NCBI GenBank assembly: GCA_030538085.1
Contig: JAUNUR010000034.1
Coordinates: 1-33,075, forward strand
DNA: 33,075 bases
Direction: 5' to 3'
Source of the DNA: Pseudomonadota bacterium
Lineage (GTDB): Bacteria > Pseudomonadota > Gammaproteobacteria > Burkholderiales > Burkholderiaceae_C
Shown: piece by piece, positions 9,038-27,740 of the stretch
How positions within the stretch are numbered: position 1 is the first letter of the stretch
How the letters are laid out: each line of letters begins with the position of its first letter
Notes under the pieces: generated by a model
Told to the model about the DNA's origin: nothing
What the model saw: the letters and a program-made list of their open reading frames with translations, nothing else
Database searches by the model: none
Program-made: the position numbers and the translations under genes

Positions 9038-9358
9038 CCTAGAAACGGCAGTTGGATGCACCCGAGCGTGCCGTGATGGGCGTGCCAGGCAAGGGCAAGT
9101 GCCGCAGCTCCAAAGCTGCCTGCGCAGCTTTGGACGGCACGAGCGGCATCGGGCTCTGACCGATGCGCGCCCTGCAAGGGAGAGGACGCGGCAGGCTCGT
9201 GCCTGCAAGGACGAGCAACGCCGCTTGGGCAGCGAGCCAGCGCGGTGCGATCGGGTGCATAGCGCGCTCACCCAACAGGTGAATGTGATCGAAGCCGTGA
9301 ACGTCAGCACGCATGCGGGTTACCCAAGGATGGCAAGCGGTCAACTGCCGTTTCTAGG
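9038..9358 (+). mobile_element. MITE-like element copy 1, 321 bp
   Basis: The left end is CCTAGAAACGGCAGTTG and the right end is its exact reverse complement, a 17-bp terminal inverted repeat. A perfect 5-bp direct repeat GTCAG flanks it (9033-9037 and 9359-9363). The interior has a strong hairpin (TCCAAAGCTGC / GCAGCTTTGGA around a 4-nt loop) and no transposase-like reading frame. Copies 2 and 3 lie in the same orientation at 18550 and 27503. It lies 72 bp upstream of the phosphatase start codon and could affect that promoter. Confidence 0.92.
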
Positions 9359-9366
9359 GTCAGTCT

Positions 9367-9443
9367 TGTGGGAGCGGGCTTGCCCGCGATGCGGCGTTGA
9401 TGAGCGCAGATGCGTATCTATCGCGGGCAAGCCCGCTCCCACA
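9367..9443. repeat. REP doublet (REPIN-like)
   Basis: Two identical 24-bp REP units lie in inverted orientation at 9367-9390 and 9420-9443. Each begins TGTGGGAGCGGG and contains the hairpin GCGGGC-TT-GCCCGC. They are separated by 29 bp, and the palindrome extends outward by CAGTCTT / AAGACTG with one extra base. The unit closely resembles Pseudomonas REP sequences, which are spread by REP-associated tyrosine transposases. No such transposase is in the window. A third unit is at 24106-24129. The doublet directly abuts the right target duplication of MITE copy 1. Confidence 0.85.
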
Positions 9444-9493
9444 AAGACTGCATGAACACTGATCGCGGAACGATGCAGATACGGCGCAAGGCG

Positions 9494-10459
9494 CTACGTT
9501 TGTTGCAGCACCTTGGCCAACACCGCCGCATCCACGTTGGCCCCGGTCAGGCTCACGCCGACGCATTGCCCGCGCAGGCGGTCACGTTCCTGCATGGCGG
9601 CGGCGAATGCCGCGGCGCCAGCGCCTTCGGCGACGTTGTGGGTGTCGGTATAGAGCGCGCGCATGGCCTGGGCCACTTCGTCGTCGCTGACGCGCACCAC
9701 GCGGTCCAGGTGCGCCGCCAGCACCGCCAGTGCCTGCGCGTCGGCGCGGCGCACGGCCATGCCGTCGGCCAGTTGGGCGCTCACCGCGCTTTCCACCACA
9801 TGGCCGGCGGCGATGGAGTCGGCATAGGTGGTGGCGTGCGCGCTGACGACACCGACGATGCGCGCGCGGTGCCCCAGCGCCTGTTTCACCGCGATGGCCG
9901 CGCAGGCGCCCGAACCCAGGCCGATGGGCACGTAGGCCACGTCGAGCTGTGGCACGGCCTTGAAGAATTCCCACCAGTACGTGGCCACGCCGCTGACCAG
10001 ATCCATGTGAAAACTGGGCACGCGCAGGGCGCCGCGCTGCTGGGCCAGGCGCGCGGCGTGGTCGCTGCTTTCGGTGAAGTCGTCGCCGTGCTCGATCAGC
10101 TCCACGCCCAGCGCGCGCATGGCGGCGTTCTTTTCCACCGAGTTGCCCCTGGGCACGACGATGGTGCAATGCACGCGATGCGCCCGCGCGGCCCAGCCAA
10201 TGCTCTGGCCGTGGTTGCCGCGCGTGGCGCTGATGACTTCGCGCGGCAGCTCGCCGCGCCGTGCCAGCGCATCGAAATACGTCAGACCGCCGCGAATCTT
10301 GAACGCGCCCACGGGCGTGTGGTTCTCGTGCTTGACCCAGCAATCGGTGCCCAGGCGCTCACTCAGCAGCGCCCAGCGGTACTGCGGCGTGGCGGGGAAG
10401 GCGCGATAGACCACTTGCGCGGCGGCTTCGATTTCGGCCAGCGTTGGCAGTGAACTCAT
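9494..10459 (-). CDS. PLP-dependent threonine/serine dehydratase-like enzyme
   Basis: A 321-residue fold-type II PLP enzyme. VKHENHTPVGAFKIRGG holds the Schiff-base lysine (Lys54). SATRGNHGQSIGWAAR is the substrate/phosphate loop, GLGSGACAAIA the glycine-rich PLP-phosphate loop, and VSLTGANVD the C-terminal motif. There is no C-terminal ACT domain, so it is not the biosynthetic feedback-regulated IlvA. A catabolic threonine or serine dehydratase, or a hydroxy-aspartate-type lyase, is likely; the substrate is not decidable here. The ATG overlaps the VOC gene stop (ATGA). Last gene of a minus-strand cluster with PhzF and an aminotransferase. Confidence 0.88.
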   Translation of the reverse strand: MSSLPTLAEIEAAAQVVYRAFPATPQYRWALLSERLGTDCWVKHENHTPVGAFKIRGGLTYFDALARRGELPREVISATRGNHGQSIGWAARAHRVHCTIVVPRGNSVEKNAAMRALGVELIEHGDDFTESSDHAARLAQQRGALRVPSFHMDLVSGVATYWWEFFKAVPQLDVAYVPIGLGSGACAAIAVKQALGHRARIVGVVSAHATTYADSIAAGHVVESAVSAQLADGMAVRRADAQALAVLAAHLDRVVRVSDDEVAQAMRALYTDTHNVAEGAGAAAFAAAMQERDRLRGQCVGVSLTGANVDAAVLAKVLQQT

Positions 10460-11187
10460 GCGGCGGACTCTCTTTCCTCGTGGGCGGACGACAGCGTGAC
10501 CAAGCCTCGCGGCGTGACAAGCTTGACCTCAATGCCTGGCGGCGCGCCAGCCTTGATCTCCACATCGCCCAGGCCAGCCGCCGCGCAAGCTTCAGCCAGC
10601 GCTTCCACGCGCGGGTGCCTCAGCCGCAACGACTGCAGCGCCACGCCGCTGGGCGGCATGCGCGTCGCCGGGTGCACGGCGCCCCATTCGATCAGGGTGG
10701 GCAGGCAGCCATCGAACAGGCGCCGGCCATCGGGCCGCACGGTGATCTGCCACGCCAGCAGGCCAGCGGGCGTCATGCGGCTGGCGTGCAGTAACTCGCC
10801 ACGGTCAACCTCCAGCATCGCCAGGCGCGCGGCGGCCTCCTGCAGATCGGGTACGCGCGCCACCCAGTGGATCAGGCGCGGGCCGTGCGCGCGCACCCGC
10901 TCGCGCAGCGCCATGTCGTCCATGTCGAACCAGCGCCTCGGGCAGGCGCCTGGCTGGCGCACAGGTGCCGCCGCCGGGTTGATGGCGATGATCTCCAGAT
11001 ACGCCAGCGGAAACGCCGCCGACTCGATGGCCAGCAAGCGATTGTGGGTGCCAAACAGCGGGTGTTCGCCACCCGGCGCGGGCGCCACGCCCAGCGTGGC
11101 TTCGCACCAGGCCGCGCCGGCCTCCAGCGTGTCGGCCATCACCACCAGATGGTCGAGACGCGGGCGGTCGTGCAGCGAGGTGGTCAC
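10456..11187 (-). CDS. VOC/glyoxalase-like domain protein
   Basis: A 243-residue protein. LDHLVVMADTLEAGAAWCEA and HPLFGTHNRLLAI (about residues 12-55) match the glyoxalase-like (Glyoxalase_3) domain of the vicinal oxygen chelate superfamily. YLEIIAINP and a second half ending VKLVTPRGLVTLSS complete the fold. The metal-dependent reaction, if any, is unknown. GTG 11187 overlaps the PhzF stop as GTGA, and its own TGA overlaps the dehydratase ATG, so the three genes are translationally coupled. An ATG further upstream would lie inside the PhzF gene and give a low-complexity Arg/Gly sequence. Confidence 0.85.
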   Translation of the reverse strand: MTTSLHDRPRLDHLVVMADTLEAGAAWCEATLGVAPAPGGEHPLFGTHNRLLAIESAAFPLAYLEIIAINPAAAPVRQPGACPRRWFDMDDMALRERVRAHGPRLIHWVARVPDLQEAAARLAMLEVDRGELLHASRMTPAGLLAWQITVRPDGRRLFDGCLPTLIEWGAVHPATRMPPSGVALQSLRLRHPRVEALAEACAAAGLGDVEIKAGAPPGIEVKLVTPRGLVTLSSAHEERESAA

Positions 11188-12110
11188 AGCATGACCTCGC
11201 CCTGGATGACGCGCACGCAATCGCCGCCCACCCACACCTGGCCGTCCGCATCGCGCTCCACGTGCACGCGGCCCGCGCGGCCCAGCGCCGTGCCCTGCGC
11301 GGCGACGTAGGCCGTGGGCAGCTCGCCCGCCTCGATCAGCCACTGCGCCAGACTGGCGTTCAGGCTGCCCGTCACCGGGTCTTCGGTCACGCCGATGGGT
11401 GCGGCAAAGGCGCGCACTTCGATCAGCGGCGCGGCTTCGCGCTCAGCCGCGGCGGTGAAGGCGCGCGCTTCGCGGCTTGACCGCGCTATCAAGGGCAGAG
11501 CGCCCTGCGCTTGTTGGATGCCGACCACACCCACTTTCTGCCCCAAGCGGGCCAGTTGCGCATGGTCGGGCTCCAGCGCCAGCACGGTGTCGGCACTGTC
11601 AAGCTGCAGCGTCAGCCAGACCGGGCCATTGTCCAGCCGCTGCGCGCGCTGCACCTGCGCGGCGGGCAGCCCCAACGCCTGCGCCACCTGTGCCAGCAGC
11701 ACGGGTGACGGATCGCTGCGTGTGCTGGGCGGCGCGGCGAAGGCCAGGCGTTCGTGCCCGCCCACCGCCTGCCGCCGAATCGGCACCAGTCCCTTGGCGC
11801 ACTGCTGCACGATCACGTCGCCGCGCTTCGGCTGCCCGCCCGCCGCCAGCCAGGCAAAGCACGAGCCCAGCGTGGGATGGCCGGCGAACGGCAACTCGCC
11901 GCCGGGCGTGAAGATGCGCAGCGTGTAATCGGCCGTCGGATCGCTCGGCGGCAGCACGAAGGTGGTCTCCGACAGGTTGGTCCAGCGGGCGAAGCGCTGC
12001 ATGGCCGCGTCACCCAGGCCGCTGCCATTGAGCACCACGGCCACCGGATTGCCGTAGCCGGGCTGGGCGGTGAAGACGTCGATCTGTGCGAAGGGGCGTG
12101 GCGTGGTCAT
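11184..12110 (-). CDS. PhzF-family isomerase-like protein
   Basis: A 308-residue protein of the PhzF / diaminopimelate-epimerase-like fold. Motifs: QIDVFTAQPGYGNPVAVVL at the N-terminus, ETTFVLPPSDPTADYTLRIF, PGGELPFAGHPTLGSCFAWL, and VTEDPVTGSLNASLAQWL in the second domain. Members isomerise small hydrophilic substrates; PhzF itself acts in phenazine synthesis, but no phenazine genes are here, so the substrate is unknown. It lies 67 bp after the aminotransferase stop and overlaps the VOC gene. Probably co-transcribed with both. Confidence 0.9.
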   Translation of the reverse strand: MTTPRPFAQIDVFTAQPGYGNPVAVVLNGSGLGDAAMQRFARWTNLSETTFVLPPSDPTADYTLRIFTPGGELPFAGHPTLGSCFAWLAAGGQPKRGDVIVQQCAKGLVPIRRQAVGGHERLAFAAPPSTRSDPSPVLLAQVAQALGLPAAQVQRAQRLDNGPVWLTLQLDSADTVLALEPDHAQLARLGQKVGVVGIQQAQGALPLIARSSREARAFTAAAEREAAPLIEVRAFAAPIGVTEDPVTGSLNASLAQWLIEAGELPTAYVAAQGTALGRAGRVHVERDADGQVWVGGDCVRVIQGEVML

Positions 12111-12177
12111 GATCGGATCACTTCAGCAAACATAGCTGCTTGCGCAGCATGGGCGGGTGCTACAACCCCATCAGACA

Positions 12178-13395
12178 TCAAAGCGCCTGCCGCACCACCT
12201 GAGCCAGCGCCGCCATCCCACGGTCGATCTGTTCCGGCGTGGACGTGACGAAGGACAGCCGCAGCGTGCGCGTGTCGGGATCGCTCGCGTAGAACGGTGC
12301 GCCGGGCACGAAGGCCATGCCGGCGTCGACGGCGGCGGGCAGCAGCGCCTGCGCGTTCAGCCCTTCCGGCAGGCGCAGCCAGACGAACATGCCGCCTTGC
12401 GGCTCGGTCCAGGTGGCACCCGTGGGGCCGAGTTCACGCGCCAGCGCCACCATCATGGCGTCGCGCTGGGCGTGGTAGCGCGCGCGAATGGTGGGCACGT
12501 GACGGTCGAGGAAACCATCGCGAATCACCTCGGCCACCACGCGCTGGTTGAAGCCGGGCGTGTGCAGGTCGGCCGCCTGCTTGGCCTGCAGGAGCTTGGG
12601 GTACAGCGCGGGCGGCGCGATGACGTAACCCAGGCGCAGGCCGGGCGCCAGGATTTTGCTGAACGAGCCCAGGTACACCACGCCCTCGGGCCAGCGCGCC
12701 AGCAGGGGCTTGGGCGGCGCCTGCTCGAACCACAGCTCGCCGTAGGGGTTGTCCTCGACGATGGGCAGACCGAACTCGCGGCAGACGGCGATCACCTGCT
12801 GGCGGCGCGTTTCGTCCATGGTGCGGCCGGTGGGGTTCTGGAAGTTGGGCAGCAGGTAGATGAAGCGCGGCCGCTCGCCTTTTTCAAGCGCCTCGCGCAG
12901 TGCCTGCGGCGACACCCCGCCGTCGTCGCTGGCCACGTTCTCGGGCACCGGCTGCATGGGCGTGAAGGCCTGCAGCGCGCCCAGGTAGGTGGGCGATTCG
13001 ACCAGCAGGCGGCAGCCCTTGTCGAGCAGCACCTTGGCGATCAAATCCAGGCCTTGCTGGCTGCCGGTGGTGATGAGCACCTGCTCGGGCGACACGGGGG
13101 TGCCGTGCTTGCCCATCTCATCGGCCACCCATTGGCGTAGTTCGGGCAGGCCATCGCTGGCGGCGTATTGCAGCGACGGCTTGGCGATGGCGCTGCCCTC
13201 GGCCAGCACGGTGGCGCAGGCGGCGCGCATGGCGTCGACCGGAAAGGTCTCGGGCGACGGCAGGCCGCCGGCGAAGTTGAGGATGCCGGGGCGCTCGGTC
13301 ACTTTCAGGATTTCGCGGATGGCCGAGGGGTTCATGGCGGCGGCGCGTTCGGCCAGTTGCCAGGGCCTGGTGGTTTTCAGGTCGGTCGGGTTCAT
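12178..13395 (-). CDS. PLP-dependent aminotransferase, class I/II (2-aminoadipate/LysN-like group)
   Basis: A 405-residue fold-type I enzyme. Motifs: ILNFAGGLPSPETFP near the N-terminus, LQYAASDGLPELRQWVA, TTGSQQGLDLIAKVLLDKG, LLPNFQNPTGRTM, IVEDNPYGELWF, and the Schiff-base lysine Lys247 in GSFSKILAPGLRLGYV. This pattern matches the MocR-type catalytic domain and stand-alone enzymes such as LysN (2-aminoadipate aminotransferase) or aromatic/branched-chain aminotransferases. There is no GntR DNA-binding domain, so it is an enzyme rather than a regulator. Amino donor and acceptor are unknown. It lies 39 bp after the EamA gene, in the same direction. Confidence 0.9.
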   Translation of the reverse strand: MNPTDLKTTRPWQLAERAAAMNPSAIREILKVTERPGILNFAGGLPSPETFPVDAMRAACATVLAEGSAIAKPSLQYAASDGLPELRQWVADEMGKHGTPVSPEQVLITTGSQQGLDLIAKVLLDKGCRLLVESPTYLGALQAFTPMQPVPENVASDDGGVSPQALREALEKGERPRFIYLLPNFQNPTGRTMDETRRQQVIAVCREFGLPIVEDNPYGELWFEQAPPKPLLARWPEGVVYLGSFSKILAPGLRLGYVIAPPALYPKLLQAKQAADLHTPGFNQRVVAEVIRDGFLDRHVPTIRARYHAQRDAMMVALARELGPTGATWTEPQGGMFVWLRLPEGLNAQALLPAAVDAGMAFVPGAPFYASDPDTRTLRLSFVTSTPEQIDRGMAALAQVVRQAL

Positions 13396-13434
13396 GGGGT
13401 TCTTTCTTGCATCAGACAGACGGCAGGTGTGACA

Positions 13435-14361
13435 TTACCGCGCCACGGCGGGCCGCGCCAGCCGGCGGCTGAGGAACACGGTGGCGACCACGGCCAGGGC
13501 GAAGCCGATCGACACCGCATCCAGCCGCTCGCCCAGCAGGGGCCAGGCGAACAGCATCGACACGAAGGGCTGCAGCAATTGCGTCTGGCTCACGCGCAGC
13601 GCACCGCCCCAGTCCAGCCCCCGGTACCAGGCGAAAAAGCCGGCCCACATCGACACCAGCCCCGTGTAGATCAGCCCCGCCCAGCTGGCGGCGCGGATCG
13701 GCTGCGCCTGCGTGTCCGGCCACAGCCAGATGGCCGCGGGCAGCGTGGCCGGCAAGGCCAGCACACACATCCAGCAGATCACGCGCTCGGCGCCCAGCTC
13801 GGGCGTGAGCCGGGCGCCGAACACGTAGCTGACCGACGCCATGATCACCGCGCCCAGCAGCAGCCCGTCGGCCGCCGTCATGCCGAAGCCGTTGCCCACC
13901 CCGGCGCGCAGCGACGCGAACGCCACCACCAGGGCGCTGCCCGCGATGGCGCAGGCCCAGAACGCTGGCCGCGCCCGCTGCCCCAGGATGACGGCCGCGG
14001 CCACGGCGGTGGTCAGCGGCAACAGCGCGGTGATCACGGCGGCGTGCGTGGCGGTGACGCTGCGCAGCGCCAGCCCCAGCATCAGCGGATAGCCCACCAC
14101 GTTGCCCGACACCGCCATCAGCAGCAACGCCACTTGGCGCCGCGTTGGCCAGGGCGAGCGCGTGAGCAGCAGGAACAGGGCCGACAGCACGCCCGCCATC
14201 GCCGCGCGGCCCACGGTCACGAACAGCGGCGACAGTTGCGGATCGTCCGCCGAACCCGTGGCCAGGCGCGTTGCCGGCACCGTGATGGCGAAGCAGGTCA
14301 CCCCCAGCACGCCCAGCCAGAAACCGGCCAGCAGGCGGGCGTCGCCTTGGGGCGCCCTCAT
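13435..14361 (-). CDS. EamA-family (DMT superfamily) transporter
   Basis: A 308-residue inner-membrane protein with about ten hydrophobic segments in two EamA repeats (roughly residues 10-145 and 160-300). The first is seen in LLAGFWLGVLGVTCFAITVP, and the second ends DAVSIGFALAVVATVFLSRR. The motif LQPFVSMLFAWPLLGERLD is typical of the last EamA helices. The family includes exporters of amino acids and metabolites. ATG 14361 was chosen; upstream in-frame sequence is Arg-rich and not membrane-like. First gene of the cluster running through the aminotransferase, PhzF, VOC and dehydratase genes, suggesting export of an amino acid or derivative (inference). Confidence 0.88.
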   Translation of the reverse strand: MRAPQGDARLLAGFWLGVLGVTCFAITVPATRLATGSADDPQLSPLFVTVGRAAMAGVLSALFLLLTRSPWPTRRQVALLLMAVSGNVVGYPLMLGLALRSVTATHAAVITALLPLTTAVAAAVILGQRARPAFWACAIAGSALVVAFASLRAGVGNGFGMTAADGLLLGAVIMASVSYVFGARLTPELGAERVICWMCVLALPATLPAAIWLWPDTQAQPIRAASWAGLIYTGLVSMWAGFFAWYRGLDWGGALRVSQTQLLQPFVSMLFAWPLLGERLDAVSIGFALAVVATVFLSRRLARPAVAR

Positions 14362-14471
14362 GAAGAAACGACCTCGTTCGCCCGCCAGACCATGTGGGCG
14401 GCGAGTCCATGAGTGCACGGGAGCAGTGTCTGGAGCATGGACGGATGCGGCGGCACGCGCGGCCAGCAAGC

Positions 14472-15752
14472 TCAGCCGCGTGTTTCGCCCTCGCCCAGCA
14501 CCACCCATTTCAGCGAGGTCAGCCCCTCGATGCCCACCGGCCCGCGGGCATGGAACTTGTCGGTGCTGATGCCAATCTCGGCGCCCAGCCCGTACTCGAA
14601 GCCGTCGGCGAAGCGCGTGCTGGCGTTGACCATCACGCTGGCCGAATCGACCTCGCGCAGGAAGCGCTGCGCGTGCACGTGGTCGGTGGTCAGGATGGCC
14701 TCGGTGTGGTGGCTGGAATAGCGGTTGATGTGCGCGATGGCTTCATCCACGCCGGCCACCACCTTGATGCTGATGATGGGCGCCAGGTATTCCTCCGACC
14801 AGTCCTGCTCGCTGGCGGCCACCAGCGTGGCCCCGGCCACCGCGCCCAGGATGTTCAGCGACTCGGCATCGCCACGCATCTCCACGCCCTTGACCGCGAA
14901 GATGGCGCCGATGCGCGGCAGAAAGGCGCCCGCCACGCCACGCGCCACCAGCAGGCTTTCAGTGGCGTTGCAGGGGCTGTACTTCTGCGTCTTGGCGTTG
15001 TCGGTCACCTTTACCGCCAGATCGAGGTCGCACGGGTCGTCCACGTAGGTGTGGCAGTTGCCGTCCAGGTGCTTGATGACGGGCACCTTGGCCTCAGCGC
15101 TGATGCGTTCGATCAAGCCCTTGCCGCCACGCGGGATGATGACGTCGACAAACTCGGGCATGGCGATGAGCTGACCCACGGCCGCGCGGTCGGTGGTGGG
15201 CACCAGTTGCACCGCCTCGCGCGGCAGCCCCGCCGATTCCAGCGCCTGCTGCACCAGCGCCGCCAGCGCCTTATTGGATTCAATGGCCTCGCTGCCGCCG
15301 CGCAGGATGCAGGCGTTGCCGCTCTTGATGCTCAAGCTGGCAGCCTCGATGGTCACGTTGGGCCGACTTTCGTAGATCATGCCGAACACGCCGATGGGCA
15401 CGCGCATCTGGCCCACACGGATGCCGCTGGGCTGCTGCTTCATCCCGACGATGTCACCGATCACGTCCGGCATGGCCGCCAGTTGCTCGCAGCCCTCGGC
15501 GCAGGTCTGGATGATCTTGGTCGTGAGCTTGAGGCGGTCCACCATCGGCTCGGCCAGGCCGGCCTCGCGGGCGCGCGCCAGATCGCGCTCATTGGGGGCT
15601 TGCAGCGCCTGCACGCCCTCGCGCAACAGCCGCGCCAGCGTGCGCAAAGCCTGGTTGCGCGCGGCGGTGCTGGCGCGTGCCATGGCGCGCGAGGCGGCAC
15701 GGGTGTTGGCACCCAGGTGGTTCATGGTGTCGTTCAGGCTTGGCGCGCTCAT
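14472..15752 (-). CDS. proA: Glutamate-5-semialdehyde dehydrogenase (gamma-glutamyl phosphate reductase)
   Basis: A 426-residue NADPH-dependent enzyme reducing glutamyl 5-phosphate to the semialdehyde, the second step of proline synthesis. Seen: [63 protein letters not shown], the catalytic Cys261 in [10 protein letters not shown], and [14 protein letters not shown] at the C-terminus. The start is ATG 15752 ([14 protein letters not shown]). Its proB partner is not adjacent. In related genomes proA often lies next to holA; here about 3.5 kb of other genes separate them. It ends 110 bp before the EamA gene. Confidence 0.97.
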
Positions 15753-15800
15753 GCACCTGATTGTCGCAAACTCCCCGCAAGCAACGGTTAAGCTGCGGCC

Positions 15801-16598
15801 ATGTTGGTTGTGATGACGGGCACGCTGGAGCGCATCAGCTATCGCTGGTCGTATCTGGACGAGCGCGCGCCGCGGTCGAAAGAGTTCGTCCGCATCGGCT
15901 GGTTGAATGCGGCTTGGAGCGTGGTGCGCCTGCTGGGCCTGGGGTTCGGTCCACGCTTCATGGCATCGGGCGCGCCTTGGGCGGCCATTCGGCACCCTCA
16001 CCTGCGGGTAAACGGACACGCTCTGAGGGGCCGCTTCACACCCATGCCGACGCTGCGGCCCGAGCCCCCATTCAAGGCGCCTGAATCCCTGCGCGTGCTG
16101 GCCGAACGCGGCGACACCGTGCGTGCGGTGGTTCGGGCCGGGCCACCGGGGGCGCCCGCCATGCTGAAGGCACTGGTACTGCCCGCCCAGCACCGCGTGC
16201 AGCTGTTCGACGTGGCGGCGGAAGGGCGCTGGGGCCATGCCCGGGCGATGGCCCGCTTCTATGTAGGCGTCTGGTTGACCCTGTTGCTGCTGAGCGCCCC
16301 GCTGGTGGCCATTTTCGGCGCGGGGGACGACGTCAGCTTCTGGTGCTCTTTCTGCGGCTTCGGGTTGCTGCTGGCCGTCAGCGTGGCGCTGGTGTGGCTA
16401 CTGGGCCTGCGCGCCTGCTGGCCTGCGGCCCGAGAGGCCGAGGCGGTGTTCACCGCGCTGGGCTGGCCGGCGCCGTCGCACATCGACCTGCATCGTCTCG
16501 ACCGTGGTCATCGCCGGCAACCCTGGTTGACGGATGGCTACGTGCTGCAGGACTTTCATTACCCGCCGGCCTTCGACAGCCCGGCGGCTTCCCCATGA
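15801..16598 (+). CDS. Membrane protein of unknown function, tandem paralogue A
   Basis: A 265-residue protein not assignable to a known family. The N-terminal part (about 1-150) is soluble-looking ([26 protein letters not shown]). Two hydrophobic segments follow at about 155-177 and 180-205. The C-terminus has the motif [20 protein letters not shown], then HRRQPW and FHYPPAFD. The next gene encodes the same architecture and motifs, so the pair arose by duplication. ATG 15801 is used; ATG 15813 (MTGTLERI) aligns better with the paralogue's start and is a fair alternative. It is divergent from proA, 48 bp away, and overlaps the next gene by ATGA. Confidence 0.75.
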
Positions 16599-17416: not shown

Positions 17417-17423
17417 GCGGGAC

Positions 17424-17840
17424 TCAACGGCAGGGTCGCTCGGTCGGCGGACTCGCCGGATCGGCACGCAGACTGGACAACGGCACAAAACCCAGCGCCT
17501 GGACGCGCGGCAGGTCGGGGGCGGCGATGTCGAACAGGTTGATCTCGTCCGTGCCCGCGCCGCACACGGCCGGACGCAGGCGGCCGTCCGATCCGCAGGC
17601 CACGGCATGCACCCGCACGCCGGCACGCTCCAGCTCGGCGCGCATGGCCTCTGGCGCGGTACCGCGCTCTTCGCACTGACGAGCGCCACGGCTCTTGAAC
17701 ACCTGAACCAGCGCCTCCGATGGCGCGGGCGCGGCTGCCGGGGCTTGCACGGCACAGCCCGAAAGCGCCACCAGCCAGCCGCCCACGGCCAGCGGCAGCC
17801 AGCGCGACCAATGAAGCGTGGAAAAGCAGTGCGGGTTCAT
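17424..17840 (-). CDS. Small lipoprotein, function unknown
   Basis: A 138-residue protein with a lipoprotein signal peptide (hydrophobic LPLAVGGWLVALSG, lipobox ALSG-C with Cys29). The mature part contains SEALVQVFKSRGARQCEERG and further cysteines (VHAVACGSDG, RPAVCGAGTD), then EINLFDIAAPDLPRVQALGF. The three mature-region cysteines suggest a disulfide-stabilised periplasmic domain. No family is recognised. ATG 17840 gives a plausible signal peptide. Its 3' end converges on the paralogue pair, and 228 bp upstream lies the divergent Roadblock gene. Confidence 0.72.
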   Translation of the reverse strand: MNPHCFSTLHWSRWLPLAVGGWLVALSGCAVQAPAAAPAPSEALVQVFKSRGARQCEERGTAPEAMRAELERAGVRVHAVACGSDGRLRPAVCGAGTDEINLFDIAAPDLPRVQALGFVPLSSLRADPASPPTERPCR

Positions 17841-18532: not shown

Positions 18533-18549
18533 TGGTCAAGTCTGTTCAA

Positions 18550-18870
18550 CCTAGAAACGGCAGTTGGATGCGCCCGAGCGTGCCGTGATGGGCGTGCCAG
18601 GCAAGGGCGAGTGCCGCGGCTCCAAAGCTGCCTGCGCAGCTTTGGACGGCACGAGCGGCATCGGGCTCTGACCGATGCGCGCCCTGCAAGGGTGAGGACG
18701 CGGCAGGCTCGTGCCTGCAAGGACGAGCAACGCCGCTTGGGCAGCGAGCCAGCGCGGTGCGATCGGGTGCATAGCGCGCTCACCCAACAGGTGAATGTGA
18801 TCGAAGCTGCGAAAGCCAGTGTCCATGCCGGTTGCCCAAGGATGGCAAGCGGTCAACTGCCGTTTCTAGG
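18550..18870 (+). mobile_element. MITE-like element copy 2, 321 bp
   Basis: Same 17-bp terminal inverted repeats (CCTAGAAACGGCAGTTG) as copies 1 and 3, flanked by a perfect 5-bp duplication TTCAA (18545-18549 and 18871-18875). It is about 95% identical to copy 1 by eye, same length and orientation. Differences cluster roughly 30-65 bp inside the right end. It lies between the RHH stop codon (13 bp away) and a minus-strand terminator. No transposase frame. Confidence 0.92.
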
Positions 18871-18882
18871 TTCAAGACAGCG

Positions 18883-20326: not shown

Positions 20327-20380
20327 CAGGCGCTCTGCGCCAGAAGGCGCGCGGACGATGGACGCGAGCCCTCACCCCAA

Positions 20381-20404
20381 CCCTCTCCCGCACGCGGGAG
20401 AGGG
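20381..20404. repeat. REP-like hairpin between lptE and holA
   Basis: CCCTCTCCCGC and its exact reverse complement flank 2 nt. Upstream is CCCTCACCCCAA. This ...ACCCTCTCCC(n)GGGAGAGGG... motif is a widespread intergenic palindrome in proteobacteria (from memory). It would form a stable 11-bp hairpin in the leuS-lptE-holA transcript. Confidence 0.65.
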
Positions 20405-20413
20405 AGCACACGG

Positions 20414-20547
20414 GCTGCGCAGCAAGCCCGAACCAGCGGCCGCGGAGCTGGCCATGCGAGAACGCCGTGGCCGGACCTGCGCCGGTCACTGGCGTTGTCC
20501 CCCTTCCCGCAGAGAGAAGGGGGAAGCGGCGCAAGCCGCTCAGGGGG
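20414..20547 (+). repeat. Composite intergenic repeat, copy A
   Basis: Shares blocks in the same order and orientation with 24703-24826: GCTGCGCAGCA, GGCCGCGGAGC-n-GGCCA, AACGCCG, GGCGTTG-n-CCCCC, GGGGGAAG and GCCGCTCAGGGGG. A further partial unit (GGGGAAGGCGGCCGCAGGCC, then GACTCAGGGGG) follows at 20562-20592. It fills the lptE-holA gap. No coding potential. Confidence 0.7.
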
Positions 20548-20594
20548 ATGTTCCGAATCCTGGGGAAGGCGGCCGCAGGCCGACTCAGGGGGTG

Positions 20595-21089
20595 TCATAT
20601 CTTTACCGTTGCCAGCCGCCGCAGCACCTGCTGCACGATGTCGCTTTGCATGTTCTGGTACAGCATCAGCGCTTCCTGCTCCTTCGACAAGGCGGCGGCT
20701 TCGGCGTAGCTCTGGTCGAGCTGGCGCAGGATCTCGGACATGGGCAGCAATTCGCGCCCCTCGGGCGTGCGCAGCTTGAAGCCGAAACGGATGCGCAGTT
20801 GCAGCTCCCGCACCTCGCCCGTGGCCGTGAGGCTGACCACGGAGCGTTCGCGCTGCTCGCCGGGGCTTTCGAGCACCACCTCGGCCTTGGCCGGGTCGCT
20901 GACGATCTCCAGCCGCCCCGAGCCCGCGAGCTGGCGGCGCAACTCCAGTGCCAGCGCGGTAGCGGGCATGACCAGCGCGATGCGGCGAAAGGCCAGCTCC
21001 GGCGGGCGCCGCAGCTGGAAGCCGCACGCGCCCAGCAGCGGCGCGGCGACAGCGGCCAGCAACCAGGCGCGGCGCGGCGATGTACGCAT
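20595..21089 (-). CDS. lptE: LPS-assembly lipoprotein LptE
   Basis: A 164-residue outer-membrane lipoprotein that plugs LptD during lipopolysaccharide insertion. The signal peptide ends LLGAC-GFQLR with lipidated Cys22, and GFxLR right after the Cys is typical of LptE/RlpB. The body contains ELQLRIRFGFKLRTPEGREL and the C-terminal MLYQNMQSDIVQQVLRRL. Its ATG overlaps the leuS stop by one base (TGATG), so expression is coupled to leuS. It is followed by holA after a repeat-filled gap. Confidence 0.93.
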   Translation of the reverse strand: MRTSPRRAWLLAAVAAPLLGACGFQLRRPPELAFRRIALVMPATALALELRRQLAGSGRLEIVSDPAKAEVVLESPGEQRERSVVSLTATGEVRELQLRIRFGFKLRTPEGRELLPMSEILRQLDQSYAEAAALSKEQEALMLYQNMQSDIVQQVLRRLATVKI

Positions 21090-23824
21090 CAGCCCACCAC
21101 CACGTTGACCAGCCGGCCCGGCACCACCACGACCTTCTTGACCGCGCCGCCGCCCCCGTGCTTGAGGAAGGCTTCGCTGGCGAGCGCGGCTTTCTCGATG
21201 TCGTCCTTGCTGGCGCTGGCCGGCACGCCGATGGCGCCGCGCAGCTTGCCGTTGACTTGCAGCACCAGTTCGATCTCGTCCTGCTTCAGCGCCTCGGGGT
21301 CGGTCTGCGGCCAGGGCGCGTCGAGCAGTTCGCCCTGCACGGCGGCAAAGCCCAGCGCCTGCCACAACGCGTGCGTGACGTGCGGCGTGACCGGGTAGAG
21401 AACGCGCAGTAGCTTGGAAAAGCCCTCGGCCAGCGCTGCGTTGTCGCCGGGCGAGCCTTCGCCCTTGAAGGCTTCCAGCGCGTTCAGCATCTTCATCGCG
21501 CCGGACACCACGGTGTTGTATTGCAGGCGCTGGTAGTCGTGGTCGACCTGGCCGAGCACGGTGTGGATTTCATGGCGCAGGGCCTTGGCGGCCTTGCTGA
21601 ATTCGATGCCATTCTGGCTGGCGGCGGTGGCCAGCAAGGCGCTGGCGGCCACGTTTTCCATGGCATGCAGCTTGAAGCCAAAGTTCCACACCCGGCGCAG
21701 GAAACGGTAGCTGCCCTCCACGGCGGCGTCGTTCCACTCCAGCGTCAGCTCGGGCGGCGCGGTGAACATGGTGTACAGGCGCGCGGTGTCGGCGCCGTAC
21801 TGGTCGATCAACTCCTGCGGGTCGACGCCGTTGTTCTTCGACTTGGACATGGTGCCCACGCCCTCGTAGTCGATCGGCGTGCCGGCGGGCAGCGGGTTGC
21901 CGTCGGCGCCCTTCGCGTAATCCACGGCCTTGTTCAGCTTGGCGCCCACCTGCTTGCCATCGGCGTCGATCACCGGGTCAACGTCGGCGGGCCAGAAGTA
22001 TTCGACACCGCCCTTCTCGTTGCGGCGCGAATAGATGTGGTTCAGCACCATGCCCTGCGTCAGCAGCTTGGTGAAGGGCTCGTCGATTTTCACCAGCCCC
22101 AGGTCGCGCATCACCTTGGTCCAGAAGCGGGCATACAGCAGGTGCAGGATGGCGTGCTCGATGCCGCCGATGTACTGGTCCATCGGCATCCAGTAATCGG
22201 TGCCGCCGGCGACCATGGCCTGGTCGTTGGTCGGATCGCAATAGCGCATGAAGTACCACGACGAATCGATGAAGGTATCCATCGTGTCGGTCTCGCGCCG
22301 CGCGGGCTGGCCGCATTGCGGGCAGGTGCAGGCCAGGAAAGCCTCGCACTTGGCTAAAGGGTTGCCGCTGCCGTCCGGCACCAGATCCTGCGGCAGCACC
22401 ACGGGCAGGTCCTGCTCGGGCACGGGCACGGTGCCGCAGGCGGCGCAGTGGATCATGGGGATGGGCGTGCCCCAGTAGCGCTGGCGGCTGATGCCCCAGT
22501 CGCGCAGGCGCCAGGTGGTCTTCTTCTCGCCCAGGCCCTGGTCGGCCAGCGCCTTGGCGACGGCATCCACCGCTGCCTGGAAGGTCATGCCGCTGAAATT
22601 GCCGGAGTTGATGGTCACGCCCTGCTGCTTGTCGGTGTACCAGTCCTGCCACTGGGTGTGGTTGTAGCTTTGGCCGTCGACATGCACCACCTGCTGGATG
22701 GGCAGGCCGTACTTCAGCGCGAAGGCGAAGTCGCGCTCGTCGTGCGCGGGCACGCCCATCACGGCGCCGTCGCCATAGCTCATCAGCACGTAGTTGCCCA
22801 CCCACAGCGGCACGGCCTCGCCGGTCAGCGGGTGCGTCACCGTCAGGCCCGTGGGCATGCCCTCTTTCTCTTTCAGAGCCAGTTCCGCCTCGGTGGTGCC
22901 GCCTTGCTTGCATTTCTCGATGAAGGCGGCCAGTTCGGGGTTGCCCTTGGCGGCCTGCTCGGCCAGCGGGTGTTCGGGCGCGACGGCGCAGAAGGTGACG
23001 CCCATGATGGTGTCGGCGCGCGTGGTGAACACGTACATGCGCCCGCCCTGGATGGGCTGACCATCGTCACCCTTGATGTCGTGCGTGAAGGCGAAGCGCA
23101 CGCCCTCGCTCTTACCGATCCAGTGCTCCTGCATCAGGCGCACGCGCTCGGGCCAGCCACCGAGCGTGGCCTTGGGGTTGCCGATCTGCACGTGGTCGAG
23201 CAACTCCTGCGCGTAGTCGGTGATCTTCAGGTAGTAGCCGGGGATTTCCTTCTTCTCGACCAGCGCGCCGGTGCGCCAGCCGCGCCCGTCGATCACCTGC
23301 TCGTTGGCCAGCACCGTCATGTCCACCGGGTCCCAGTTGACGACCTGGGTCTTGCGGTAGGCGATGCCTTTTTCCAGCATCTTCAGGAACAGCCACTGGT
23401 TCCACTTGTAGTAGCTGGCGCCGCAGGTGGCCACCTCGCGGCTCCAGTCGATGGCCAGTCCCATGGCCTGCATCTGGCCCTTCATGTGGGCGATGTTGTC
23501 GTAGGTCCACCGCGCGGGCGGCACGCCGTTCTTCAGCGCGGCGTTCTCGGCCGGCAGGCCGAAGGCGTCCCAGCCCATGGGCATCAGCACGTTGAAGCCC
23601 TTCATGCGCAGCTGGCGGGCCAGCATGTCGTTGATGGTGTAGTTGCGCACGTGGCCCATGTGCAGCTTGCCGCTGGGGTAAGGCAGCATGGAGCAGGCGT
23701 AGTACTTGGGCTTGGGCGCGCCCTGCGCGTTGCGCGCGCCCTCGGTCACGCGGTAGGCGTCGGTGGCCCGCCAGTGCGCGTGCGCGGCCTGCTCGACGGC
23801 CCGGGGATCGTATTTTTCTTGCAT
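21089..23824 (-). CDS. leuS: Leucyl-tRNA synthetase
   Basis: A 911-residue class Ia synthetase charging tRNA-Leu. HIGH-type motif HMGH in [18 protein letters not shown] near residue 57; KMSKS-type motif in [20 protein letters not shown] (TMSKS). The editing CP1 insertion is present ([19 protein letters not shown]). [19 protein letters not shown] and [11 protein letters not shown] are the zinc-like cysteine pairs. [15 protein letters not shown] and the tRNA-binding C-terminus are intact. ATG 23824 ([12 protein letters not shown]) is preferred; a TTG two codons upstream is possible. Full length for the family. First gene of leuS-lptE-holA, with a promoter about 160 bp upstream. Confidence 0.97.
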
Positions 23825-23980
23825 GGGCAAATTGTAGGCGGGCGCGCACGGACGGCCCGGTGTTCAGCGACAGAGACTGCTATAAAAAAAAGAGTCGCCC
23901 GCAACCCTTGGAGCCCGCGCTCACGACAGGAGGGGGACTACTGAAATATTGTTATCTGTAAAAAACAGCTTTTGCCTTTT

Positions 23981-24010
23981 ATTATCATGCGCCATCAGCT
24001 ATCGTTTCAA
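23981..24010 (-). promoter_or_regulatory. Probable leuS operon promoter
   Basis: Reverse strand: -35 TTGAAA (24005-24010), 18-bp spacer, -10 GATAAT (23981-23986), each 5/6 to consensus. The predicted start near 23974 leaves a 5' UTR of about 150 nt before the leuS ATG. Confidence 0.65.
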
Positions 24011-24105
24011 TATCATTAAATGGCGTCAAATTGTTATCGCCTGATTTGGCGAAAGCGGTACTTGTTTTAGAGCATGCCTGTACGCATGCGGTTTCCATCG
24101 TTTTT

Positions 24106-24129
24106 TGTGGGAGCGGGCTTGCCCGCGAT
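24106..24129 (+). repeat. Single REP unit
   Basis: Identical over 24 bp to the two units of the REP doublet at 9367-9443 (TGTGGGAGCGGG, then CTTGCCCGCGAT). It lies between exbD and the leuS promoter. No inverted partner is found nearby. Confidence 0.82.
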
Positions 24130-24190
24130 AAGCCCTGGCTCAGGGCGAAGCGCTGCCATCGTGGCCAAGGCTGCTGCCAAAAGCAGTATC

Positions 24191-24218
24191 TGAGAGGCTG
24201 CCCCCAAACTCCTCGCGC
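24191..24218 (-). repeat. 28-bp repeat downstream of exbD
   Basis: Reverse strand GCGCGAGGAGTTTGGGGGCA then GCCTCTCA. It matches 27474-27501 (plus strand) at 26 of 28 positions. Each copy lies just beyond the stop codon of a gene (exbD here, fur there), pointing away from it. Nature unknown. Confidence 0.6.
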
Positions 24219-24238
24219 CGCGCACCTTGCTCCGGCGG

Positions 24239-24685
24239 TCAGCGCGAGGCGCCAGTCGCGGGCGCGTCGGCGGCTGGTGCATCGGCGACGAAGCCGATGC
24301 GGTTCAGCCCGGCCTTCTGGGCTTCGCCCATCACCTCGACCACGCGGCCATAGGGCACGCCCTGGTCGGCGCGCAGTTGGACCTCGGTTTCGGGGTTGGC
24401 GCGGGCGGCGTCTTGCAGGGCGCTGCCCAGTTCGGCCTGGGTCACCGGCCTGTCGTTGAAGAAGGCCTGGCCGTCCTTGTTGACCACCACGGTGACGAAC
24501 TTGGGCGGATCGCCCGGCTTGGCGGCGTCGGTCTTGGGCAGATCAAGCCGGATCGAGCTGGCCAGCAGCGGCGCGGTGATGATGAAAATGACCACCAGCA
24601 CCAGCATCACGTCGACCAGCGGCGTGACGTTGATGTCGCTCATGGGCTCGCTGCCCTTGCCGTGTTCGAGTCGCCCGAATGCCAT
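24239..24685 (-). CDS. exbD: ExbD/TolR-family proton-channel subunit
   Basis: A 148-residue inner-membrane protein with one N-terminal membrane helix. SDINVTPLVDVMLVLVVIFI carries the conserved proton-pathway Asp25, followed by the periplasmic domain (RLDLPKTDAAKPGD, VQLRADQGVPYGRVVEVMGE). It partners with the MotA/TolQ/ExbB protein encoded 144 bp upstream, using the proton gradient to energise an outer-membrane transporter through TonB, or alternatively the Tol system. The lack of pal/tolA/tolB nearby favours ExbD. The C-terminus is an Ala/Asp-rich tail. Confidence 0.88.
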   Translation of the reverse strand: MAFGRLEHGKGSEPMSDINVTPLVDVMLVLVVIFIITAPLLASSIRLDLPKTDAAKPGDPPKFVTVVVNKDGQAFFNDRPVTQAELGSALQDAARANPETEVQLRADQGVPYGRVVEVMGEAQKAGLNRIGFVADAPAADAPATGASR

Positions 24686-24702
24686 GTCAGCTCTCCCAGG
24701 CC

Positions 24703-24826
24703 GCCGCGCAGCAGGCGCCTTCCGAAGGCCGCGGAGCAGGCCACGCCGAAACGCCGCGCTCGGGGTTTCCCCGAGCGCCAGCGTTGCCCCCCTCTGGGGG
24801 AAGGCGCCGCAGGCGACTCAGGGGGG
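24703..24826 (+). repeat. Composite intergenic repeat, copy B
   Basis: Occupies the exbB-exbD gap and is collinear with 20414-20547. It includes a very strong hairpin at 24756-24778 (GCGCTCGGGG, loop TTT, then the reverse complement) and ends GGGGGAAGGCGCCGCAGGCG, then ACTCAGGGGGG. Copies like this are, from memory, common between genes in Comamonadaceae. It may modulate the exbB:exbD ratio (inference). Confidence 0.72.
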
Positions 24827-24829
24827 AGC

Positions 24830-25462
24830 TCATTTCATGAGCTCTCTCAGGTCGTGCGCGAAACCCTCCAGCTCCGCCTCGATGTTGCCGATGGCCCGGC
24901 CAAACCAGTTGTAGGCCAGCACAGCCGGAATGGCCACCGCCAGGCCGGCGGCGGTCATGATCAGCGCCTCGCCCACCGGCCCGGCCACGCGCTCGATGCT
25001 GATCTGCCCCGAGCCGGCGATGCCGATCAGCGCATGGTAGATGCCCCACACCGTGCCCAGCAGGCCGACGAACGGCGCCGTGGCGCCCACGGTGGCCAGC
25101 AGCACCTGGCCAAACCGCAACTGCCGCATCACGGCATGCAGCGCGCCACGCAGCGCCCGCGTGAGCTGCTGCGCGCGGTCGCCCGCCGCCGCCAGCGTGC
25201 CGTCCGCGGGCAGCTGCGTGGCCCGGATCAGCGGCAGCACCCACTGGCCGCGATCGAAGCCGCCGACGCGATCGGCCGCGTCCACCAGGGAGGGCGCTTG
25301 CCAGAACGCGGCCACGCCGCGCGCCACGTCGCCGCCGGCGCGGCGCAGCATCCACGCCTTCCACAGAATCACCACCCAACTGGCGGTGGACATGAGCAGC
25401 AGAAGAATCGCCACGGCCTTGCCGATGGCGTCGCTCTGCATGAAGACTTGCTGCAGGTTCAT
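24830..25462 (-). CDS. exbB: MotA/TolQ/ExbB proton-channel protein
   Basis: A 210-residue inner-membrane protein with three hydrophobic segments: about 16-38 (AVAILLLLMSTASWVVILWK), 117-145 (VLLATVGATAPFVGLLGTVW) and 165-188 (ALIMTAAGLAVAIPAVLAYN). The second and third carry the family's GxxAPxxGLLGTVxG and AxxTxxGLxVAIPA motifs. It forms the pentameric channel around ExbD. It lies 36 bp after the dapB stop, in the same direction. No tonB is in the window, so its energy-transducer partner is encoded elsewhere. Confidence 0.88.
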   Translation of the reverse strand: MNLQQVFMQSDAIGKAVAILLLLMSTASWVVILWKAWMLRRAGGDVARGVAAFWQAPSLVDAADRVGGFDRGQWVLPLIRATQLPADGTLAAAGDRAQQLTRALRGALHAVMRQLRFGQVLLATVGATAPFVGLLGTVWGIYHALIGIAGSGQISIERVAGPVGEALIMTAAGLAVAIPAVLAYNWFGRAIGNIEAELEGFAHDLRELMK

Positions 25463-25498
25463 GGCTTCAGAAAAACGGCCAAGGGCTGTCCGGCACGG

Positions 25499-26329
25499 TC
25501 AGGACGACAGCCGGTTCAGGTCCAGCACGTCGAACATGTCGAACAGTCCGCTGGGCTTGTCCGCCAGAAAGCGCGCCGCGCGCAGGCTGCCTTGCGCGTA
25601 GCCGGCGCGGCTGCCGGCCTTGTGCGAAATCTCGATGCGCTCGCCCGTGCCCGCGAACAGCACGGTGTGGTCGCCCACGATGTCGCCGCCGCGAATGGTG
25701 GCGAAACCGATGCTGGACGGATCGCGCTCGCCGGTGTGGCCGTGGCGCTCGTACACGGCGCATTGGCCCAGGTCACGGCCCAGCGCCTCGGCGATCACCT
25801 CGCCCATCTTCAGCGCCGTGCCACTGGGCGCATCCACCTTGTGACGGTGGTGCGCCTCGATCACCTCGATGTCGTAGCCGGTGGCGAGCGCCTTGGCCGC
25901 CATCTCCAGCAGCTTGAAGGTGACGTTGACGCCCACGCTCATGTTGGGCGCCATGACGATGGCGATGTCCTGGGCGGCGGTGGCGATCTCGGCCTTCTGC
26001 GCCTCGGAAAAGCCGGTGGTGCCGATCACCAGCGCCACGCCCCGCGCGCGGCAGGCCGCCAGGTGCGCCATGGTGGCCTCGGGCCGGGTGAAGTCGATCA
26101 GCACCCGCGCGCCTTGCAAGCCGGTGGCCAGATCGGCGGTGACGGGCACGCCGCTCGCCCAACCGGCGAAGGCGCCGGCGTCCTGCCCCAGCGCGGGGCT
26201 GTCCTCGCGATCGAGCGCGCCGGCCAGCGCGCAGTCGCCGGACGCGCGCACGGCCTCGATCAGCATCTGGCCCATGCGGCCAGTGGCGCCGGCAATGGCC
26301 ACGCGCAAAGGTGAAGCGGAAGAAGTCAT
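25499..26329 (-). CDS. dapB: 4-hydroxy-tetrahydrodipicolinate reductase
   Basis: A 276-residue NAD(P)H-dependent enzyme of lysine/diaminopimelate synthesis. The N-terminal Rossmann motif is [18 protein letters not shown], then [41 protein letters not shown], and the catalytic/substrate motif [23 protein letters not shown] 26329 ([14 protein letters not shown]) is chosen; an upstream in-frame start at 26356 adds nine residues without family resemblance. It lies 57 bp after bamE and 36 bp before exbB in a conserved betaproteobacterial order. Confidence 0.96.
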
Positions 26330-26386
26330 CGGCGAATGTCCAGGCTTGGCGATCAACAGGTCACGGCAAGGCGTGACGCGAAAAAC

Positions 26387-26944
26387 TCAGCGCCCGGGCT
26401 CCAGCGGCGGGTAGCTGAGGGCCGGCTGCGCGGTTTCGCTGGCCGATGGCGCCGCCTCACCCTCCGGCCTGGCGGCGGGGAACTTGGCCAGTTCCTCCTC
26501 GGTGGCTTCCAGCTTGGGCACCTTGACCTTGCGATCGCGGCTGATGCGCTGCACGAACTCGGTTTCGCTGGGCATGTCGTCGCCCTCGAAGCGCTCCAGC
26601 GAATCGCCCTGAAAGAACACCGCCAGCCGGAACTGCTGCGGCTCCACACGCTGGCGCTTCATGGTGAACACGTAGTCCCAGCGGTCGCCGTGGAACAGGC
26701 TGGTGACCAGCGGCGTGCCCAGGATGTCGCGCACCTGCAGGCGCGACATGCCCGGCTGCAGCGCGGCCACCTGTTCCCTGGAAACGAAGTTGCCCTGCAC
26801 CACTTCGGGCTTGTAGAGCGTGATGGCGTCGGCGATGCCGCGGGTGCCCTGCTCGAAACTGCTGCAGGCGGCCAGGGCCGCCGCCAGCACGGCCGGCATG
26901 ACCCGCGCGGTCATGCGGGCATGGGTTCGGAAATTGACAAACAT
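26387..26944 (-). CDS. bamE: Outer-membrane assembly lipoprotein BamE (SmpA/OmlA)
   Basis: A 185-residue lipoprotein of the BAM complex that inserts beta-barrel proteins. Signal peptide with lipobox ALAA-C (Cys27 from this start). The SmpA/OmlA domain contains [40 protein letters not shown] and VFTMKRQ. The C-terminal 60 residues are a Pro/Glu/Ala-rich extension beyond the domain. ATG 26944 is used; ATG 26914 ([12 protein letters not shown]) would also give a workable, shorter signal peptide. Divergent from fur with 76 bp between them, a gene pair conserved in betaproteobacteria. Confidence 0.92.
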
Positions 26945-26981
26945 GCGTCGCGGCTCATGCACAATACGGCCGGTCATTGTA
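26934..26981. promoter_or_regulatory. Divergent bamE/fur promoter region
   Basis: Minus strand (bamE): -10 TACAAT (26976-26981, 5/6) in GCTACAATGA, with no clear -35. Plus strand (fur): TTGACA (26934-26939) and CACAAT (26960-26965), but their 20-bp spacing is long, so the true fur -35 may differ. No convincing 19-bp Fur box was found by eye. Confidence 0.45.
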
Positions 26982-27020
26982 GCGGTGGCGCCACGTCGCG
27001 CCGCGACGAGACGCGCCAGC

Positions 27021-27470
27021 ATGGACATGATCGACGAACTCAAAAGCACCGGCCTGAAGGCCACCTTGCCCCGGCTGAAGATTTTGGAGTTGTTCCAGAA
27101 AGCCGAGCAGCGCCACATGACGGCCGAGGACGTCTACCGCCTGCTGCTGGCCGAGCAGTCCGACATCGGACTGGCCACCGTGTACCGCGTGCTGATGCAG
27201 TTCGAGCAGGCTGGCCTGCTGAGCCGCAACCATTTCGAGGCCGGCAAGGCGGTGTACGAGCTGCGCGAGGACGAGCACCACGACCACCTGGTGTGCCTGG
27301 ACTGCGGCCACGTGGAGGAATTCCACGACCCCGAGATCGAGAAGCGCCAGAACGCCGTGGCCAAGGCGCGCGGCTTCACCATCGCCGACCACGCGCTCAG
27401 CCTGTACGCCAACTGCACCAAGGCGGAGTGCCCGCACCGCGCATCCGGCGCGCCCGCGCCAAGGCGCTGA
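27021..27470 (+). CDS. fur: Ferric uptake regulator
   Basis: A 149-residue Fe(II)-dependent repressor. The winged helix contains [18 protein letters not shown] and [20 protein letters not shown]. The metal-binding dimer domain has [20 protein letters not shown] (HHDH, CxxC) and [15 protein letters not shown] 27021 ([13 protein letters not shown]) is preferred over ATG 27027 because family members begin with two or three residues before IDELK. It is divergent from bamE and convergent with hprK, from which MITE copy 3 now separates it. Confidence 0.96.
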
Positions 27471-27473
27471 GCA

Positions 27474-27501
27474 GCGCGAGGAGTTTGGGGACAGCCTCTT
27501 A
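27474..27501 (+). repeat. 28-bp repeat downstream of fur
   Basis: GCGCGAGGAGTTTGGGGACA then GCCTCTTA, starting 4 nt after the fur stop codon. It is 26/28 identical to the reverse strand at 24191-24218. Its last four bases are part of the left target duplication of MITE copy 3. Confidence 0.6.
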
Positions 27502-27502
27502 G

Positions 27503-27739
27503 CCTAGAAACGGCAGTTGGATGCGCCCGAGCGTGCCGTGATGGGCGTGTCAGGCAAGGCGCGAGGACGCGGCAGGCTCGTGCCTGCAAGGACGAGCAAC
27601 GCCGCTTGGGCAGCGAGCCAGCGCGGTGCGATCGGGTGCATAGCGCGCTCACCCAACAGGTGAACGTGATCGAAGCCGTGAAAGTCAGTGCTCATGCCAG
27701 TTGCTCAAGGATGGCGAGCGGTCAACTGCCGTTTCTAGG
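27503..27739 (+). mobile_element. MITE-like element copy 3, 237 bp (internal deletion)
   Basis: Same 17-bp terminal inverted repeats, flanked by a perfect 5-bp duplication CTTAG (27498-27502 and 27740-27744). It lacks 84 bp relative to the 321-bp copies, including the central hairpin. The deletion endpoints lie at short CAAGG repeats present in the full copies. It is inserted between convergent fur and hprK, and the right duplication contains the hprK stop codon. Confidence 0.92.
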
Positions 27740-27740
27740 C

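Follow-up and report, generated by a model that had tools for sequence, protein, structure and literature searches.

Positions 1 to 33,075 of contig JAUNUR010000034.1 from a Pseudomonadota bacterium (GenBank assembly GCA_030538085.1), the whole stretch being referred to here as the window, contain three short elements, copies 1 to 3, each bounded by inverted copies of the 17-bp sequence CCTAGAAACGGCAGTTG and by its own 5-bp direct repeat. A first-pass annotation, made from the letters alone, had described three elements with perfect ends, lying in the same orientation, lacking a transposase and flanked by the separate duplications GTCAG, TTCAA and CTTAG. We located all six exact ends and found each duplication to be exact on both sides (Table 1), and a search allowing up to three mismatches revealed no site in the window beyond these six, the mean in 100 shuffles being 0.04. 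No transposase gene was found inside any of the three. Minus-strand open reading frames (ORFs) of 101 aa with a TTG start span copy 1 and copy 2, respectively, and are not conserved frames: when copy 3 was aligned with 31 elements of other genomes, at least one stop codon interrupted every one of the six frames in 24 to 32 of the 32 elements, and a coding interior was rejected. The elements are very probably miniature inverted-repeat transposable elements (MITEs) of a divergent group of IS1380-type insertion sequences (ISs), moved in trans and carrying a structured module.

Table 1. Window positions of the three elements, their parts and adjoining features (R1, covariance model of the interior)
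Feature	Position	Strand	Remarks
tRNA genes (three)	131-515	minus	
Target duplication GTCAG, copy 1	left 9033-9037, right 9359-9363		exact
Copy 1	9038-9358	plus	321 bp, long version; ends 9038-9054 (plus), 9342-9358 (minus)
Copy 1 interior	9055-9268	plus	folded module and extra hairpin-rich sequence
Best R1 match, copy 1	9138-9283		56.4 bits
Subterminal palindrome CACC-N5-GGTG, copy 1	9269-9281		starts 78 bp from right end
Inverted pair of REP-like repeat	9365-9450		beside copy 1
Target duplication TTCAA, copy 2	left 18545-18549, right 18871-18875		exact
Copy 2	18550-18870	plus	321 bp, long version; ends 18550-18566 (plus), 18854-18870 (minus)
Copy 2 interior	18567-18780	plus	folded module and extra sequence
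Best R1 match, copy 2	18650-18795		58.9 bits
Subterminal palindrome CACC-N5-GGTG, copy 2	18781-18793		starts 78 bp from right end
Second mini-element family, one end, GGAGTTTGGGGACAGCCT	27480-27497	plus	directly adjoins duplication of copy 3
Target duplication CTTAG, copy 3	left 27498-27502, right 27740-27744		exact
Copy 3	27503-27739	plus	237 bp; ends 27503-27519 (plus), 27723-27739 (minus)
Copy 3 folded module	27520-27649	plus	
R1 match, copy 3	27520-27664		125.1 bits; copy 3 belonged to the R1 training set
Subterminal palindrome CACC-N5-GGTG, copy 3	27650-27662		starts 78 bp from right end
Stop codon of hprK	27741-27743		overlapped by right-hand CTTAG of copy 3

Transposition, spread and parent group

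The genome to which the window belongs (3.50 Mb in 134 contigs, the window being contig C77) holds 142 exact 17-bp ends, 74 forward and 68 reverse, with about 100 positions listed individually and none for a reversed-pattern control. A BLAST search with copy 2, in which 40 of 194 candidates were scored, gave 65 matches there, 13 of them near full length, including copies 1 and 2. Several contigs start inside an element, as expected of a repeat in a fragmented assembly, and at one locus (L009, G000:C10:6944 and 6963) two right ends lie 19 bp apart. In a search of 60 relatives, the exact end was present in 12 genomes, the own one among these 12 and all of the same genus, and in none of the genomes of 31 other genera. 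At least 106 stretches from other genomes contain the 23-base right end, both Beta- and Gammaproteobacteria being represented among the 80 titles listed. Other copies, on whose existence the first-pass annotation had made its reading depend, are thus plentiful. Two plasmid records carry a 234-bp element, phages gave no match to the element, and viral contigs gave two matches to the 17-mer, of which L235 looks like chance; a Vibrio plasmid match, a single end with one mismatch, was also taken as chance.

In other genomes, 77 elements were obtained by requiring readable flanks and, no more than 500 bp away, a second end with at most three mismatches. Their length was 234 or 235 bp in 34 cases; the common element size is about 234-237 bp, and copies 1 and 2, at 321 bp, represent a longer version. 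The flanking 5-mers were identical in 49 of the 77, all of them reading NTNAN (T at position 2 and A at position 4), with positions 1 and 5 palindromic in 40 and non-palindromic in 9. A base-exact empty site is provided by an element of 177 bp that has the same perfect ends and lies inside IS1071 tnpA on a Variovorax PBS-H4 plasmid, flanked by ATAAA on both sides; a Hydrogenophaga BPS33 plasmid carries it at the same position. The joined flanks with a single ATAAA matched IS1071 at 99% or more in 153 records, of which 151, the PBS-H4 plasmid itself being one, cover at least 80% of the query. For copy 3, the joined flanks aligned in one piece, with the insert absent, in 8 of 28 other genomes of the genus; the spacers of these loci are too diverged for the single 5-mer to be read. 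The comparison with uninserted loci proposed in the first-pass annotation is therefore base-exact for the plasmid element and limited to absence of the insert for copy 3. Together with the copy number and the identical 5-mers elsewhere, it upholds the earlier view of non-autonomous mobile elements with 5-bp duplications.

A 5-bp duplication is favoured over a 3-bp TNA duplication with an end 1 bp longer, which is disfavoured by the non-palindromic identical duplications (9 of 49) and by the ATAAA empty site; for the 3-bp reading, among 12 elements with equal TNA and unequal 5-mers the inner bases are complementary in 9 and the outer bases in none. In a sister genome (L108, G004:C112:14943-16132), a 252-aa ORF, which we take to be methyltransferase- or spermidine-synthase-like, lies between two mini-elements; a composite transposon at this place was rejected, since the flanking 5-mers of the two mini-elements differ.

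The first-pass annotation could name no parent. The parent group has now been identified as autonomous elements of 1.63-1.70 kb encoding divergent IS1380-type transposases, so that full-length elements with a transposase exist in other genomes, with similar ends, and were not found in the own genome. A PF13701 profile search gave a match in 43 of 274 genomes of the class, and at loci L323 and L324 the ends CCTAGAAACCGCAGTTG/A surround a transposase of 519-520 aa. Relatives of the L323 protein occur in 20 of 369 class genomes and in four plasmid records, one of them from a Polaromonas plasmid (L359, 42% identity to the L323 protein), and relatives of the L359 protein occur in 35 of 399 family genomes, including one of the same genus (G014, 50% identity). 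Eleven autonomous elements, of 1630-1703 bp, were examined end to end. Five have identical 5-bp NTNAN flanks (CTAAT, GTGAA, TTGAT, TTAAA and ATGAT in gene direction), the closest ends agree with the 17-bp end of the window elements in 16 of 17 bases, and the palindrome CACC-N5-GGTG starts 78 bp from the 5' end in six and 86-88 bp from it in three. Measured from the right end, the same palindrome starts at 78 bp in copies 1, 2 and 3 of the window and at 76-79 bp in 23 of the 32 aligned elements, compared with 0.7% in shuffles and 0 of 32 at the left end. This matching spacing indicates that the right end of the mini-elements corresponds to the 5' end of these ISs, and the spacing also accounts for the near-constant length and free sequence of the stretch between the end and the palindrome. 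Thus, ends and subterminal site are common to the mini-elements and to autonomous elements encoding PF13701 transposases.

Two of the transposases were scanned with PF13701 and scored 58.8 and 86.5 bits (cut-off 34.7). For four tested, NF033539, the IS1380 family of NCBIfam, was the best match (121.6, 155.5, 128.2 and 156.7 bits), with none reaching its cut-off of 180, which counts against a plain assignment and is the reason why we call them IS1380-type and the group divergent. The identity of the window elements as IS1380-type MITEs is well supported. The CCTAGAAACGGCAGTTG ends would be recognised by a transposase encoded elsewhere, for which the palindrome lying 78 bp in from the right end is probably a further recognition site and which would insert the element into NTNAN targets with duplication of 5 bp; the window copies would have been moved in trans by such an enzyme.

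The folded interior and its recurrence in other mini-elements

The first-pass annotation noticed neither the conserved folded interior nor the presence of the same module in mini-elements of unrelated ends. The module is about 120 nt long and consists, in order, of an outer stem, CAAGGCGC, a stem-loop, GCAACGC and the outer stem again. Of 40 non-redundant copies, 31 were aligned with copy 3, the other nine, several of them longer versions, being left out by hand; the alignment gave 60 predicted consensus pairs, 35 of which show two-sided compensatory change. The consensus folding energy was -92.4 kcal/mol for the plus strand compared with -38.5 kcal/mol for the minus strand. Among pairs that were at least 60% Watson-Crick, G-U and A-C wobbles numbered 95 and 22 on the plus strand and 28 and 44 in the minus-strand fold, the plus-strand prediction having allowed G-U and hence favouring it. 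Two adjacent wobble columns are kept as such, U-G in 26 and G-U in 27 of the 32 elements, and mean conservation is higher in the 16 unpaired hinge columns (0.854) than in the 79 paired columns of the core (0.707), the value for all 43 unpaired core columns together being 0.768. The interior is therefore likely to be a selected, strand-specific fold. Neither the elements nor the module were matched by an Rfam 15 family at gathering score; six weak matches (E 0.06 to 0.94), of which two or three overlap an element, were far under these scores.

Genomes were searched with a covariance model of the interior, R1, at E 1e-5, and matches were found in 31 of the 274 genomes taken from the class and in 19 of the 398 taken from the phylum, the own genome being counted in both. 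In the own genome, R1 also matches a second mini-element family (best E 0.0001), of about 160 bp, with GAGGCTGTCCTCAAA ends, TNA-centred flanks and 49 exact matches. Flanks at 24 of the 30 R1 loci from the class search revealed at least four further kinds of ends, including GGCCTGTT and TATACCC types, and six elements contain two modules in opposite orientation (L258, L259, L260, L261 and L265, with GGCCTGTT-type ends, and L264). Pairing extends across families, with a covariation score of 0.604 compared with 0.158 in shuffled data and, in the 22 rows of other families alone, 94.8% paired compared with 61% in shuffles; the alignment concerned (A3, with one fragment row of 36 dropped) was made by fitting to the model and is thereby biased towards pairing. 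The module was not detected in the 11 autonomous elements (best E only 0.15), and the sole strong R1 match at their loci is a mini-element beside the Polaromonas element. One hybrid element (L015/L082, G000:C18:46805-46960) has a left end of the first family and a right end of the second, with CTCAG, read by eye, on both sides.

That the module recurs between unrelated ends suggests that it is independent of them and has been captured several times, and this is the part worth pursuing. A tentative reading, to which we would give almost, but not quite, an even chance, is that the interior represents a mobile structured module not described before, acting as RNA or single-stranded DNA, which mini-transposons with unrelated ends have repeatedly captured and which benefits its carrier. 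With the same reserve, such a module may have spread across Beta- and Gammaproteobacteria as a 'parasite of parasites', similar to an IStron without intron or protein. Located between the left end and the palindrome, it would act as a folded single strand, more probably of RNA than of DNA, and may aid the persistence or spread of whichever mini-element carries it.

Competing readings and relation to known systems

Besides the limits given with the scores and alignments above, several observations weigh against our interpretation of the elements as IS1380-type MITEs with a structured module. No perfect 5-bp duplication is present in 28 of the 77 paired elements (flanks differing at one base in 14, two in 8, and three or four in 6), and identical flanks are lacking in 6 of the 11 autonomous elements, that of G014 having one difference. 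No autonomous element was found that carries the exact 17-bp sequence on both sides, most of the ends of the 11 differing at 2 to 5 of the 17 positions and some at more, and the palindrome pattern is missing in 2 of these 11, in 9 of the 32 aligned elements and in 18 of 55 in a larger set. Searches of the own genome with NF033539, PF13701 and two relatives' proteins revealed no IS1380-type transposase at E 0.001, so that present mobility there is unproven. A PF13701 match is found in 10 of the 31 module-carrying genomes, leaving 21 carriers without, and in 33 of the other 243; the genomes of L323 and L324 are outside the 31 carriers. As for the module, it is absent from the 177-bp plasmid element and hence is not needed for movement; when pairs were picked by Watson-Crick counts alone, the strand bias was weaker (G-T 90, A-C 55); and the CTCACC-GGTGA hairpin, although included in the fold, is more plausibly the DNA palindrome described above and is therefore not to be taken as evidence for RNA.

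The nature of the single strand has the strongest competitor. The module may be a protein-bound hairpin of single-stranded DNA, formed during replication or transfer, rather than RNA, a possibility that we regard as real although clearly the lesser one. G-T pairs are tolerated in DNA as well, so that strand bias cannot separate the two, and in the six elements with opposed modules G-T pairs outnumber A-C pairs in each module when it is read on its own strand (3:0 and 7:0, both small numbers). In addition, no promoter-like or terminator-like site was found at copy 3 (27300-27900), which also speaks against our own interpretation. For RNA, on the other hand, read-through transcription is possible, and no protein partner or single-stranded DNA step is known for these elements.

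It is unlikely that the pairing in the interior is a by-product of strand-switching repair of imperfect DNA palindromes at replication, which would produce covariation without function. The elements are indeed rich in inverted repeats, and the outer stem varies freely in sequence while its pairing is kept; such repair, however, does not predict that two adjacent wobble pairs stay wobble, that hinge columns are better conserved than the paired core, or that one strand is preferred. Least probable is a mobilising transposase of a type other than IS1380, for example IS5-like, as the TNA target core, the second family of the own genome with TNA-centred flanks and GAGGCTGTCC ends, and two partial DDE_Tnp_1 (PF01609) matches in that genome might suggest, since IS1380-type elements share similar ends, 5-bp duplications and palindrome spacing, and since ends within five mismatches at 30 DDE_Tnp_1 loci (ten genomes) were single or unrelated, giving no paired ends of the same type apart from one exact pair, a mini-element lying directly after a DDE_Tnp_1 transposase fragment (L274, G000:C114:38366).

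Repetitive extragenic palindromic (REP) sequences and REPINs, which go with Y1 transposases (RAYTs), are small palindromic repeats occurring in many copies, some as inverted pairs, and have no target duplication. The elements described here differ in their 17-bp ends, their 5-bp duplications and their link to a DDE rather than a Y1 enzyme, and membership in this class was rejected because of their target duplications, the RAYT gene itself not having been searched for. Their ends presumably resemble those of ISEcp1, which we take to belong to IS1380 and to have CCTAGA-type ends and duplications of 5 bp, and those of piggyBac. IS1380 likeness consists of the DDE transposases of the relatives, which belong to PF13701 with NF033539 as best match, and of CCTA-type ends and 5-bp duplications; the difference lies in four proteins under the NCBIfam cut-off and in window elements that have a structured module and no transposase. 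According to the part of PMC10813416 concerned with them, the target of piggyBac is TTAA and IS1380 was used as an outgroup. The MITE passages of PMC10969869 describe prokaryotic MITEs as short, non-coding and mostly IS-derived, with inverted ends, direct repeats and stem-loop transcripts; a shared module such as the present one, a covarying folded interior found across genera and recurring with unrelated ends, is not described in those passages. In IStrons, as described in part of PMC4227781, a group I intron, a structured RNA, is joined to different IS families. The partnership of RNA and transposon is similar, whereas the module here has no Rfam match that reaches the curated threshold and gives no indication of splicing.

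The 17-mer, its reverse complement and further element fragments were found in none of the papers searched, and among the matches listed in topic searches we recognised no paper describing the element or the module. An abundant and apparently unnamed proteobacterial repeat is now tied to a parent group of ISs, and a conserved folded module has been shown to travel in mini-transposons with several unrelated types of ends. If functional, this module would be a new kind of transposon helper structure, RNA or DNA, and the covariation model makes direct tests of it simple.

Surroundings of the three copies

By Pfam assignment, copy 1 is located between genes for His_Phos_1 and PALP proteins, copy 2 between an ORF without a Pfam match and an RHH_9 gene, and copy 3 between FUR and Hpr_kinase genes. 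Copy 3 abuts hprK, its right-hand duplication overlapping the stop codon of that gene. Three tRNA genes are present near the left end of the window. The inverted pair beside copy 1 consists of a TGTGGGAGCGGGCTTGCCCGCGA-like sequence, which presumably resembles the REPs of Pseudomonas and has many further matches in the own genome and in genomes of the same genus.

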